A DNA stretch of 64,000 nt from Filobasidium wieringae (lineage: Eukaryota; Basidiomycota; Tremellomycetes; Filobasidiales; Filobasidiaceae): NCBI GenBank assembly GCA_001600055.1, contig BCIV01000012.1, positions 558,474-622,473 of the forward strand, given 5' to 3'. The notes beneath the pieces are model-generated. The model was given only the letters and a program-made list of their open reading frames with translations, was not told the origin of the DNA and did no database searches. Shown piece after piece: positions 17,050-23,416 of the stretch (the first letter of the stretch is position 1; each line of letters begins with the position of its first letter). Made by a program: the position numbers and the translations under genes.

Positions 17050-20000
17050 CTACTCAGAGCCACGCGAATTTTTGTACGTGTCTACCCATTTCTTCTCCTC
17101 GTCACCCTTCGCTAGCACCACGAAGCTGAGGAGGCCGTCATTCATGACAAGACCATCCTTCTGACCACCAATTGCTGGCAAATCACCCGCCTTCTTGATG
17201 ACATCGCGCAGAGTTAGACCACGACCAACCTTCAGGAGTCGTTTGCCATGAGTCTCGGCAAAGACGACCAGGTTGTCGCAGTAGTACTGATGCGAACGGT
17301 CCCATTCTGCCCAACTACCTCCATTTTGACCATTGGCATCCTTCGGGAACATCGTCTCGAGTTGATCGTAGAACGTGGTGTCCTCGTGGAAGTGAGTGAT
17401 CATGTCGGAAGTGGAGTAAGTGGGATACATCAGGAAAGCGGGGTAAACGACGGGATGATCGATGCCTGGTGGGTACCACTTCTCGCTAGCCCCTACTAAA
17501 GGGATAGTTGGAGAAGATTCGTCTTTGGCGAAAGAAGCGGGACTTGGGTTGTCAGGGGGAGATGGGGAGTGGATCTGAACAAGACCACGTGCCTATGAAA
17601 TATGTAATGAGTATCGACATTTCGCGCATTGGTGGCGATGAACTCACCTCGATAGCCCTTCGAAGAGCTTCCTGACCCACTTTAGCGCGTCTCTCACGCT
17701 CAGTCCTCTCTTGCACCGTCAAGGTTCCCTTGGCCACCTTGCTTTCTAGTCCTTCCCACGTCTTCTGCTTTTCCGCTGACAATTCGGAAGGCAACTGCTT
17801 TCCACGAGTGATACAATCGGATGCATCTTCCCACCGAGAAAGCGCTATCAGAGACGATGCCGCTCGGAAGTAGGCTTTCGCGGATTCAGGGGTCTCTTTG
17901 AGCACAACTCCGGTGTCTCTAAGAACAGACCCATGATTACCGAGCGAAAGATTACAAGCCGCTCGGTTCAACAGCAAACTCAGACGTAGTTGCTGGTTCT
18001 CTGGCTTAGCCTCTATTCCCTGGTTGTAGAACCCGAGAGCATCACGCAATTGACCGGCCTGATGACGCTCGGTCGCTTGCTCCTTGAAGTTTTCCGCAAT
18101 TTCATCAGGTGTTCCATCAAAGATCAGCGACTTCAAAGCTTCCAGGGTCTCGTTCTCCTCCCCGGCAGCTGGATTCTCTCTCATGAAGAGAGGGGTCTTG
18201 TCAAACAGCTCGTCAAGGTTCTTGCTTGCTTTGGGCGCTGGACCAGTGCCATTGCCCATGTTGACAGCGCTTTCGGCTGGCTCGGGATGAGATACACCAT
18301 TGCCGTTACCGTTCGTGACAGGGTGAGCATTTCCGTTGGTCTCTACACTGGACGATCCGTTGACCAAACCTTTGACTCCGTTGACTGCAGAAGCTGCCGC
18401 GTTACCAACCACCTGAGAGGCCTGGGATACAGCGTCGCTGACGGTATTCACCGCATTCGCGGCAATCGAAGCAGCGGGTCGGTCGAGCTGGAAAGGCTCG
18501 AAGATGGATAGACCATCCTTGAAATCGTTAGCAACGATGTTAACCAGATAGGAAGTGTTCATGACGTCTTGGATCAACTTGCGCGAGGTAGAGTTCTCGT
18601 CGTAGAAGTTGGCCCATTGCATACCAAGCTCGAAAGCCTCGTCCTTCCAAGCGATAAAGGATACAGCTTCAACAATAGTAGGCTGAACAATCTCCTTTCC
18701 AGGGAACACTCCCCAGGTGACAGCATTAGGTCCCTCGCTGTGAGTGTTGGTCCTCAGATCTCCCTGTCGATTGACAGCGTAGTAGGTGATACGAGGATCC
18801 TTCTCGATTCGTCGGACTAACTCGTCCAAGAGATTAGGCGCCACAAAGAATTCGAGGTAAGCCTTCTGATAGACGTATCCACCAGCCGGTCCCCATCCGT
18901 GAGTAGGGTCCTCGCTGGATGCTCCATCTACAGCAGGCTGACTGTTAATGGTCAAGTAACCCAGCTCATTCATCTTCGCTAGCTGTTGATCGATAACGGA
19001 AGTCTCCTTGGAAGGAGGCTGACTAGACCAAGGAAGAGCGTTAAGCTCGTTCCTACAGAATTTAGCGAAGAGAGCAGTGATGTCGGAAAATTGCTTGGGC
19101 TCTCCCCAGATCTCGTGAGCGTTATTACCAGGCACATCAATCTTAACGGGGTATCCATCAAGATCACCATAAGCAGGACTTCGCGAATCTCCCCATCGAC
19201 CATTAGGGAATTCGTCCCAATCCTCGGTACGAGAGAGGTAAGATTGCTGACGATTAGCCCAGAAGATAGGTCGGATGGCTTCTCCACGTCGGTTGGGAGT
19301 GAGGGAAGGACGCCAAGGAAGAGGATGGACTTGTTCCCTTCGAGACTCCAGTCTCAGTTCTTCAAGAAGCATTCTAGCACCCTTCTCCAAGTTCAGCGTA
19401 TACACATGCAAACCCCTGATGCCCAACCCAGATCCAACGATATCTCGGCACATCTGAGCGACCAGCTTGGTTCCGACTTCTCGGACCGCCTCGTCGTTAT
19501 CCTGGACAGGTAGCAAGACGTCCCAGAACTTTTGAGGGACAACGATGCTCTCTCTCTTGACCCAGGTCATGAATTTTTGCCAAGACTGGATCGGCATAAT
19601 ACCAGGAACGATGGGAACGTCGATCCCAGCAGCCCTAACTCGCTTGACCCAATCGATGAAGATGTCTACGTCGTAGAACATCTGGGTGAAAATGAAGTTT
19701 GCGCCCGCGTCAATCTTGGCCTTTAAAAACTCGATCTCTTGCTTCATAGCGTCCGCATCCTTGGCAGTCTCGGGATGACCTTGAGGAAATCCGGCAACAG
19801 CGACATCGAAGTAGTCGCCGTATTCTGCTCGGATATACTTGACGAGGTCGATGGCCTTGCTGAACCCTCCGGGAGTAGGAGTCCAGTTGGACTGTCCATT
19901 AGGAGGATCTCCTCGAAGTGCGAGAATATTTTGACAGCCATGTTGCTTGGCAATCTAATAGGATGGATTCAGGTCAATATGCAAGATCAGAAGCCAGGTG

Positions 20001-20500
20001 GACGAGCAGAACTTACTCGGAGAGCCTCCTTCACTTTTTCCTCTGGCACTACAAGACGATATTACGTTTAGCTTCCATGCGAGGTCATACCAATAGCAGT
20101 GTTACTCACTCTCAGTACAACACAAATGCATGCAGGTTTCCATTCCAATGCTCTGCTGACATACTTGAACCAAATTCAAGGTGAGATCAGAGTTCTTTCC
20201 TCCCGCGCCCCTAGAAAATACATTATAAGTCAGCACAGGACTATGATTGAGACGATTAGCTCATGGGGACTTACCAGGTAATGTCGATGAATTCGGGTCC
20301 AAGCAGCCTCATACGCTCAATACGATCGTACAGGTTTTGGAGACCCTTTGGAATAGTAGATGAACTTTTGAGTCAATTCGCTCGATCAAATCGAAAGGTA
20401 ATTGATTGCATACCTGAGCAGTTCGGGGAGGGAAGTATTCGAAACTCCAAACGATCCTGTCCTCCTTCTCAGCGATCGCGAATTTCTCGGAGATCTTCAT
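17050..20500 (-). CDS. MTHFR fused to a Cns1/TTC4 Hsp90 co-chaperone
   Basis: Six exons join in phase to 1,046 residues: 20500-20414, 20345-20275, 20210-20110, 20048-20017, 19954-17648, 17592-17050. Residues 1 to about 590 are a complete eukaryotic methylenetetrahydrofolate reductase, which makes 5-methyltetrahydrofolate for methionine synthesis. They include the FAD-barrel (WSFEYFPPRTAQ, LGPEFIDITWGAGGKNSDLT, LALRGDPP, ANFIFTQMFYDVD) and the regulatory domain (WGPAGGYVYQKAYLEFF, GPNAVTWGVFPGKEIVQPTI). A linker of about 83 residues rich in Ala, Asn and Gly follows. Residues 673-1046 match Cns1/TTC4: NLDELFDKTPLFMRENP, a TPR domain with carboxylate-clamp-like residues (FKEQA, LLNRAACN, KAYFRAAS), and the C-terminal wheel domain (YPTYSTSDMITHFHEDTTFY, LRDVIKK). 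Exon 5 alone carries the end of MTHFR, the linker and the TPR domain with no stop, so the fusion is directly visible. I know of no described protein with this layout. Confidence 0.9.
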
Positions 20501-20975: not shown

Positions 20976-23416
20976 TCATAAAAGCTTTCCAGATCTATCG
21001 CCCTTGTCGAATCTCGCCTTGTTGAAGTATGTCGCGCGCTGTAAGAACGAACCCTAAGAGATGTCCAGGTATTATCCATCACACCGTGACTAACCACTTC
21101 TCGTCCACCGAAGAACCTTCCGTCCATTTCCTTTACTGTCCTCCAAGCTCCTGCTAGACCAGAGAACACGACAAAGATGCGTATCGCCTGAGATGGGTCT
21201 GAAGGTGCTGGATCTACCGCATGCATGACGACCCGTTCAACAATTCTGGAAAGCGCAGAACCGTCAGTTTACAGACTCATCCGTAAGCGAGTCATCTGGC
21301 TTACCCGTTCTTTCCACACTCCTCTCCAATCTCCGTTTGAAGGTCTTCATCCGCCTCATCAGGACTACCCAATACGTTTGTAAGGCAAACAACCTCGCTG
21401 GGTTCCCCGTACCTCTTTTTCTCTTCCTGCTTCTTAGCATCTTCATTGAGGTTGACTAGTTTCCCTTTAGTGGTACTAGCCTGAACCCAACCACCTTTGC
21501 TCTTCTTCTTTGTCGGGTCGATGTTTTCTGCAGCGAAAGCATGAACAATTCCATCCTGTTGTTTACCGAGACCTTGTCCTTCCTGATGACCCCACTTCTT
21601 CATCACTACAAGGCGTTTCATGAGTCAGCAGCACTAACAGACGAAAGACCACGAGCAGCACTCACTCCTCTCAGCAAAAGTACCGCTTGTTTCGCTGTTA
21701 CAACAATCGTCAACGCATGCAGCAATCTCCCAATAGTATGTCCTCCACTCACTCCGGTACATTTCCGCTCTTCGCTTCGACTTCTTTCGCCAACATCGCC
21801 ACTACATCTTCCCCGCTCATTCCCGTAGTGTCCCGCACGGCTTCAACCTCCTTCTGGACGACCGCTTCTATCTCGCCCATAGCTGCAGGTCCTTTCAAGG
21901 CGGAAAGCTTGTCAGCGATAGCTTTGGCTGCCGCTTTCCGTTTCTCAATTTGAGCAGCGAAGTCATCTGCTGCAGATACCTGCGGTGTCTCTGCAGGTGG
22001 TACAAAGGAAGGGGTACTGGTGGAGGAGGAAACGAAATTGGGCATCGAAGCAACAGGCCTGACGAATGCAGGGGGTCCTGAAGCGCCCGAGCCGATGCCT
22101 GCACCTATACCAAGTCCCCCTCCACCCGAAGACATGGCCACTCTCCTGGCATAAGCTTCATCTGCCGTCTCGTTTCTTGAGGGGGCAGTGGAAGCTGGCT
22201 GGAAGGAGGGAGCAGATTGCGGTTGGAAGGAGGGAGGTCCCTGAGGTTGCGAGAGTGCCAATCGTCGTGCATACGCTTCATCGGCTGTCTCAGATTTACT
22301 GTATTGCATAGCCTGGCGACGAGCCTCGTCATACGCATTTGGTACTTCTTCGGCAGGCTGCACGTTTGAAGAGCTTGCGGTCTGGTTTGAAGAGTAAAAT
22401 GAGGTAGGAGGTGCAAATGCCTTGGGAGCTAAAGGCCATTGCCATCAAGGTCAGCAACTGCTTGTCAGGCGATCCCGGCGGTGTAACATACCATCTCTCC
22501 TCTCATCACGCTCATCTTCAGAGTAATAACTACCCTCGCTCTCACTCCCTCGTCGCTTGCGTTCTTCTTCCTCTCTTCGCCTCATCTTAGCTTCTTCTCG
22601 TTTAGCTCTCCTCCATCCTCTGTATTCCTGTAAATCATTAGGCTGTCCCGGATTGTACAGCTCGTCAGGTTGAAACACGTGGACAGGCATCTCGAATTGT
22701 TTCTGGGCAGAAGATGGTAACTATCAATTTGGGACTGCCTCGTACTATTTACATGTCGACCAAAGATTACCACTTACTCGCTTCTTGTTTTTCCACTTCC
22801 TCTTTCCCTTTCCCTCTCCCTCTCCGGGATAACCTCTCTTCTTGTTGGCCGGTACATTCGCTCCCTCCAGAGTCATCGCCGGAGGTTTAAAGATCTTTTT
22901 CCCATCCGAGCTAACCACTTGCTCTTCAGATCCTGTCGGGGCCGGTGCCGAGGCGGACAAAGCTGGAGCAGGGGCTGAAATGAAAGTCGACGAAGTGCTA
23001 GCAGAGGCCATAGTAACAGGTTTGAAGCCACTGGAAATGAAAGTAGAAGCTGTTGGTGGTACCGCAGGTTTCACTGCTCCTTTCCCCTTTCTTGAAGCCG
23101 CTGGAGCGAATTTGAGAGCGGCTGACCATCCTGGACGGGCTACTGCTTGATTAGCAGCAGGCACGCTCGACGGATCAGCAGGGTTCGGTGTAAATTCTTG
23201 CGACTGGGGAGAATCTAACGATTCCCTCTCATTGATATCAGCATCCTAATCGAAAGACCGAGGGTTGATTGGCCCCCTCATATATGATAGGATCATACCG
23301 ATGGTCTTGACTAAGGGCAAGTCATTTGAGCTTGACTGTGCTACGGCCACGGCAGCAGCAGGCTGCGGTTCTTTCGTAGGATCCGCCACGAAACTTGTTC
23401 CAGCGAATAGAGACAT
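20976..23416 (-). CDS. Splicing factor SPF45 (RBM17), G-patch and UHM protein
   Basis: SPF45 acts in the spliceosome during 3' splice-site choice. The start reads MSLFAGTSFVADPTKEPQ, and an intrinsically disordered N-half contains RPGWSAALKFAP, a form conserved in SPF45. A charged helix follows (RRAKREEAKMRRREEEERKR), then a region with two copies of ETADEAYARR, then the G-patch (MKKWGHQEGQGLGKQQDGIV). The C-terminal RRM-type UHM domain reads VVMHAVDPAP, GRFFGGREVR and ATYFNKARFDKGDRSGKLL. The last exon is set by donor GTTAGT to CGCGCG, which restores the RRM end and a TGA at 20976. Several introns are placed by eye. It lies downstream of nothing obviously related. Confidence 0.87.

Follow-up and report, generated by a model that had tools for sequence, protein, structure and literature searches.

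An in-frame gene fusion of methylenetetrahydrofolate reductase with the Hsp90 co-chaperone Cns1 in Filobasidium wieringae and related fungi

In PP5, FKBP52, Cyp40 and Cpr7, an enzyme domain is carried on a tetratricopeptide repeat (TPR) module that docks to the tail of Hsp90. The folate-pathway enzyme methylenetetrahydrofolate reductase (MTHFR) is a dimer in eukaryotes. Yeast Cns1 is described, in a passage of PMC11651573, as an essential protein that supports the folding of eEF2 together with Hgh1 and Hsp90, and parts of the same source and of PMC13049181 present it as the link of Hsp90 with Hgh1 and eEF2. Here we describe a gene of Filobasidium wieringae in which MTHFR and Cns1 are joined. 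It is located in a stretch of 64,000 nucleotides (assembly GCA_001600055.1, contig BCIV01000012.1, positions 558,474 to 622,473), called the window below. It probably encodes a real bifunctional protein, which arose when a Met13-type MTHFR became joined to the N-terminus of Cns1, has been kept since, and would be made as one chain with two ancestral functions.

The fused gene and its two halves

Joining of six exons with GT-AG borders gives a reading frame of 1046 amino acids plus stop, corresponding to a protein of about 116 kDa (Table 1). The junction between the MTHFR and Cns1 parts is inside exon 5, which consists of 769 codons with zero stops and is flanked by TATTAG and GTGAGT, and neither an intron nor a stop is present at that point. 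The initial annotation of this DNA had proposed an in-frame fusion of two complete proteins, with exon 5 running from 19954 to 17648 and exon 6 adding the Cns1 Wheel domain. The gene model, the Pfam matches and the PDB matches agree with this proposal, including the identities of both halves: the limits of exon 5 are exact and the exon is open throughout, the Wheel domain lies within exon 6, and the halves, which had been put at about 590 and 374 residues, measure 587 and about 371. The GC content at codon positions 1, 2 and 3 is similar in the MTHFR half (0.57, 0.40 and 0.55) and the Cns1 half (0.60, 0.42 and 0.56).

In a PDB sequence search, MTHFR chains cover residues 2–607 (8uy2, E 2.5e-219), and the sequences FEYFPPRT, TWGAGG and RGDP, which we take to be functional motifs of MTHFR, are all found. 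A fourth Pfam model, DUF6919, scores barely above its cut-off and falls inside the MTHFR regulatory part. For the second half, the Wheel model reaches 95.9 bits against a cut-off of 27. Yeast Cns1 (6hft) aligns over residues 704–1006 (E 2.7e-27), and the TPR region was assigned on the basis of this alignment. A PLFM-type motif precedes the TPR region in all eight fused sequences discussed below (as PIFM in record P0009) and in 126 of 132 other Cns1 proteins. The second half is assigned to Cns1/TTC4 because of the Wheel domain and the overall homology, despite an incomplete carboxylate clamp.

Table 1 Features of the MTHFR-Cns1 fusion gene (window positions)
Feature	Position	Strand	Remarks
Fusion gene, entire coding sequence	17050..20500	-	Start ATG at 20500, stop ends 17050; 1046 aa
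Exon 1	20414..20500	-	87 nt; GT-AG joins
Exon 2	20275..20345	-	71 nt
Exon 3	20110..20210	-	101 nt
Exon 4	20017..20048	-	32 nt
Exon 5	17648..19954	-	2307 nt; remaining MTHFR barrel, regulatory domain, linker, Cns1 N-terminal motif, TPR domain
Exon 6	17050..17592	-	543 nt; Cns1 Wheel domain and stop
MTHFR catalytic domain	19355..20467	-	Residues 12-297, across exons 1-5; Pfam 354.9 bits
MTHFR regulatory domain (MTHFR_C), binding S-adenosylmethionine (SAM)	18518..19324	-	Residues 308-576; Pfam 297.2 bits
Linker	18221..18484	-	Residues 588-675
Met663 codon	18257..18259	-	Only in-frame ATG between MTHFR end and PLFM; context AACATGG
Cns1/TTC4 part	17053..18220	-	Residues 676-1046
Thr725 codon	18071..18073	-	Site of first carboxylate-clamp Asn
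Wheel domain	17074..17457	-	Residues 912-1039; Pfam PF18972

The upstream neighbour on the same strand (about 20980–21624, minus strand) appears by eye to be an SPF45-like splicing-factor gene with a G-patch and an RNA recognition motif.

Relatives, origin and copy number

With the whole protein as query, 4009 matches were obtained among 8000 scored candidates, and the best 120 of these 4009 were listed. Among the matches listed, records P0003, P0004, P0005, P0006 and P0008 contain both MTHFR and Wheel domains, with 60–78% identity and 98–100% of the query covered; P0006 is without the first residues and P0008 without a stretch near exon 3 of the window gene. Records P0007 (98% identity) and P0009 are partial, yet they cross the junction in frame. 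The remaining 113 rows have at most 62% query coverage, i.e. they match MTHFR alone. Record P0005 is from Naganishia albida and P0008 from N. onofrii, members of the Filobasidiales, and the other five fused records have metagenome-type sources, P0007 probably being from the same species as the window or a sister species. P0009 diverges near residues 627–636, just after the sequence GTPD of its Cns1 part, as if into an intron that is missing from the window gene. A second census, in which the Cns1 half was used as query against proteins of at least about 575 amino acids, gave 27 matches, comprising the same seven fused records, 18 proteins with an S7 domain, and two others. Under single-base shuffling, 34 of 2000 linkers remain open, so that the open linker by itself is modest evidence for a fusion; the in-frame crossing by seven other records is strong evidence.

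Trees were built from hand-picked rows (28 of the 113 unfused MTHFR rows and 23 of the 132 other Cns1 proteins). The eight fused sequences form one group among the 36 rows of the MTHFR tree (support 100/99), and the seven fused sequences in the Cns1 tree, which has 30 rows, also group together (99/97). Most simply, these trees suggest that the joining happened once, in an ancestor of a lineage that includes the Filobasidiales. This also bears on where the fusion arises, a check that the initial annotation had proposed: the two trees place it in a lineage to which Naganishia belongs. Unfused MTHFRs among the matches listed come from Cryptococcus, Kwoniella, Tremella and Dioszegia of the Tremellales and from Apiotrichum, Cutaneotrichosporon and Vanrija of the Trichosporonales. 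Among the best 120 of 298 matches, many of which are nameless, stand-alone Cns1 proteins were found for Cryptococcus, Kwoniella, Tremella, Cutaneotrichosporon and Vanrija, and none for Dioszegia, Apiotrichum or a named Naganishia. As to whether the two genes were neighbours before they were joined, the evidence is mixed: the locus tags in Cutaneotrichosporon spelunceum (0205540 and 0502860) suggest that MTHFR and Cns1 are on different chromosomes, and in Cryptococcus amylolentus the two genes are each on equally long contigs.

Pairwise identities among five fused proteins (ten pairs) are 80–90% in MTHFR and 56–70% in Cns1, as compared to 79–94% and 52–79% for the ten pairs of five unfused species, a comparison that is rough since the two sets differ in age. 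Conservation of the two halves is thus similar in fused and unfused proteins, and decay of a tethered Cns1 is unsupported, its divergence relative to MTHFR being like that in the unfused species.

The linkers are more variable. The distance from the MTHFR end to the PLFM motif ranges from 76 to 187 residues in the fused proteins, and with the near-identical P0007 excluded, 14 to 38 of 60 to 88 aligned linker residues are identical. The linker of the window protein is of low complexity and looks flexible by eye. Again by eye, its first part is reminiscent of the tails at the C-terminus of Tremellales MTHFRs that lack the fusion, as would be expected if the two proteins had been joined at the former MTHFR end. 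These tails (P0010–P0015) are rich in Val, Ala, Gly and Asn and have an 11-residue look; in the window, the resemblance is at the start of the linker (18484–18221). A Tremellales-type tail may be a membrane-binding helix. Hydrophobic moments, calculated without a control set, are 0.32–0.50 in seven fused linkers versus 0.22–0.52 in seven unfused tails; on this basis, an amphipathic lipid-binding tail in the linker is not claimed.

The genome (19.76 Mb, 33 contigs) was scanned by profile for additional copies. In this one search, the sole match to the Wheel domain was the fusion, which therefore probably holds the only Cns1 of this genome. One further MTHFR gene (L009, C18:355500-360000) is unfused, has several introns, and has no Wheel match nearby; the best match of its first exon is MTHFR 1 (6fnu), with 8uy2 a close second. 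Thus, as to whether separate MTHFR or CNS1 genes remain, which the initial annotation had asked, the answer differs between the two: by one profile search each, a second MTHFR gene is present, and CNS1 was found in the fusion alone. The gene on C18 adjoins what appears by eye to be a SAICAR synthetase gene.

Function, the carboxylate clamp and alternative explanations

If the fused protein works as we propose, each half would keep its ancestral task, i.e. methyl-folate synthesis for the one and Hsp90/Hgh1-dependent folding of eEF2 for the other. A DUF383 domain, which we take to be Hgh1, was found in this genome. Since MTHFR is dimeric, flexible linkers would allow the MTHFR dimer to display two Cns1 modules to both tails of the Hsp90 dimer, and a changed residue in the clamp would represent a shift in the way the Hsp90 tail is held.

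According to part of PMC2939883, the EEVD tail is held by five residues, namely Lys and Asn, a second Asn, and Lys and Arg. Four positions of this K-N-N-K-R clamp are kept in fused Cns1 (K, the second N, K and R in all seven sequences that reach the site), so that the full clamp is not present. The first Asn is replaced by Thr in the window protein, P0003, P0004 and P0007 and by Val in P0005, P0006 and P0008, and P0009 ends before the site. The change may be a single event, because the seven fused sequences represent at most five distinct branches of one group. Threonine at this position is also found in the chain of CYP7 (5jhe), presumably yeast Cpr7, and in FK506-binding protein 4 (FKBP52). 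Both Cpr7 and FKBP52 are Hsp90 partners, and docking of fused Cns1 to Hsp90 is therefore probably altered, not lost. Cyclophilin 40 (1ihg) has Asn. Contacts of FKBP51 with the Hsp90 tail are given in a section of PMC5660230 as Lys272, Glu273, Asn322, Lys329, Lys352 and Arg356; together with the Thr in the CYP7 and FKBP4 chains, they weaken the idea that Hsp90 binding was lost by the clamp change. In yeast, deletion of the MEEVD pentapeptide reportedly leaves growth unimpaired (PMC4608684), so that a looser clamp would not have to be detrimental.

Several observations weigh against a single chain in which both functions persist. The first clamp residue is Asn in 130 of the 132 other Cns1 proteins (gapped in the other two), and its equivalent in Hop TPR2A, Asn233, is counted among the key MEEVD-binding residues in a passage of PMC7524759. 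This remark, and the presence of Val instead of Thr in three fused proteins, favour lost binding, and loss of the first Asn could at least weaken the interaction with Hsp90. Furthermore, the Pfam scan of the fusion protein gave no TPR model at E 0.001, the failure to find another Cns1 comes from a single profile search of a genome whose completeness is not stated, and the dimer display is deduced from what is known of MTHFR. The fused product is predicted from the gene sequence, and a strong start context at Met663 and a methionine shared by P0004 and P0006 leave room for separate initiation of Cns1. Nevertheless, we consider one bifunctional chain that retains both ancestral functions the probable situation.

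It is also conceivable that functional coupling was selected. The supply of methyl-folate and methionine could be tied to Hsp90-dependent eEF2 folding, or Hsp90 could keep hold of MTHFR, whose stability or control by SAM would then follow the state of the chaperone. Both are, in outline, purposes that the initial annotation had put forward. In agreement with this, the fusion was retained in every fused branch encountered despite widely varying linker lengths, the fused group is also the one that shows the clamp change, and the co-chaperones PP5 and FKBP52 likewise join an enzyme to an Hsp90-docking TPR. However, cross-talk between the halves is a prediction, a neutral fusion of two genes that are always needed would look alike, and the linkers are poorly conserved. 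We therefore regard selected coupling as unlikely.

A more far-reaching possibility is that the lineage shifted its Hsp90 tail code, with MTHFR permanently incorporated as a subunit through which each Hsp90 dimer receives two Cns1 modules, methyl supply being coupled in this way to elongation-factor folding. The sole Hsp90 gene found (L011/L034, C19:356536-356519, minus strand) ends in ...STKRMEELD, not MEEVD, an observation that comes from one genome and hinges on one base; an Hsp70 on C19:73792-75803 ends in VEEVD. When aligned with Hop and Sti1 chains, TPR2A of Sti1 (L028/L041, C4) has Thr at the first clamp site, and a Cyp40-like protein (L042/L051, C21) has Ala. The Asn is retained in Sti1 TPR1 and TPR2B, in PP5 (L029, C17), and in proteins that by eye are Tom70-, auxilin- and Sgt2-like (L037, L040 and L043). 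Thus, three of the four Hsp90-type clamps identified are changed, versus none of the five others, in a survey that is incomplete, as it covered a short motif over 16 TPR_1 matches plus the Sti1 and PP5 loci. Another motif match, L048, which has Asp at the site and seems by eye to be a DnaJ-linked type of the endoplasmic reticulum, was excluded as not of the clamp kind. A shift across every Hsp90 co-chaperone is not upheld, since PP5 keeps its Asn. Even with PP5 as an exception, a shifted code for Cns1, Sti1 TPR2A and the Cyp40-like protein together with a permanent MTHFR subunit is distinctly unlikely. No paper was found in the literature with MEELD as a whole word, or with TPR2A, MEEVD and N233 together. 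If a matched change of tail and clamps holds in relatives, it would provide a natural experiment on how Hsp90 tails are told from those of Hsp70.

Two separate proteins could be produced from one locus, by an internal promoter or start (at Met663 or at the Met of the PLFM motif) or by post-translational cleavage of the linker. The start context of Met663 is strong, with A at −3 and G at +4, a methionine stands 11 residues before PLFM in P0004 and P0006, 44–45 residues before it in P0005 and P0008, and 94 in P0003, and the linker looks flexible by eye. However, a start methionine common to all eight fused sequences ahead of PLFM was not found: the position of Met663 is shared by the near-identical P0007 only, and P0009 has no Met at all between the MTHFR end and its PIFM motif. 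The chains of other Cns1 proteins start 25–64 residues ahead of PLFM in 18 of the 19 compared (in P0157 the motif was not found). The metagenome records give a further indication. P0007 and P0009 end in apparent intron sequence, which suggests that the metagenome gene caller ignores introns. If it does, then P0003, P0004 and P0006, which run on without a break at each place where the window gene has one of its five introns, would derive from spliced RNA spanning both halves. Production of two proteins is thus quite improbable, and a single chain of about 116 kDa appears the better supported prediction.

An artefact of gene prediction or assembly that merged two neighbours is rejected as extremely improbable, because even though comparable mergers probably occur (Cns1-S7 chains of Agaricomycetes, 18 of the 27 long Cns1 matches), here the junction is within a single exon without stop or intron and recurs in frame in seven other records.

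Comparison with known systems

The initial annotation knew of no description of this protein. Literature searches on MTHFR with a Cns1 fusion, TTC4 or Naganishia agree, in that judged by titles nothing apparently describes it; on the other hand, the protein is present in public databases, for instance under the name met13 in Naganishia albida. Within the literature searched, MTHFR-Cns1 appears to be a new domain combination among the enzyme-TPR co-chaperones. Two proteins that are separate in the related orders covered, a central enzyme of folate metabolism and an essential helper of Hsp90, are apparently one chain across a whole lineage. The fusion thus offers a natural test between two views: a link of the Hsp90 machinery with methyl-group supply and translation elongation, or a harmless tethering of large essential proteins.

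The first half is like eukaryotic MTHFRs of the yeast Met13 type (8uy2, 6fcx) in having a catalytic and a SAM-binding regulatory domain. In the unfused fungal MTHFRs compared (seven of seven), the chain stops after a further 7 to 51 residues of tail, whereas the fusion continues into a second protein. This second protein has the same PLFM motif, TPR region and Wheel domain as Cns1/TTC4 (6hft), and differs by its position behind MTHFR.

The Agaricomycete Cns1-RPS7 models (P0183, P0189, P0201, P0209, P0235 and others) resemble the fusion in that Cns1 shares an annotated chain with a second protein, in their case 40S ribosomal protein S7. They differ in that Cns1 comes first in all five that were read, with a varying join point. 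Since four of these five have a separate methionine at the start of the S7 part and the join point differs, they are probably adjacent genes merged by annotation.

Like PP5, FKBP52, Cyp40 and Cpr7, the fused protein combines an enzyme with a TPR that would dock to Hsp90. The enzymes of those co-chaperones are phosphatases or prolyl isomerases, whereas the fusion has an enzyme of the folate pathway, and its TPR is accompanied by a Wheel domain.

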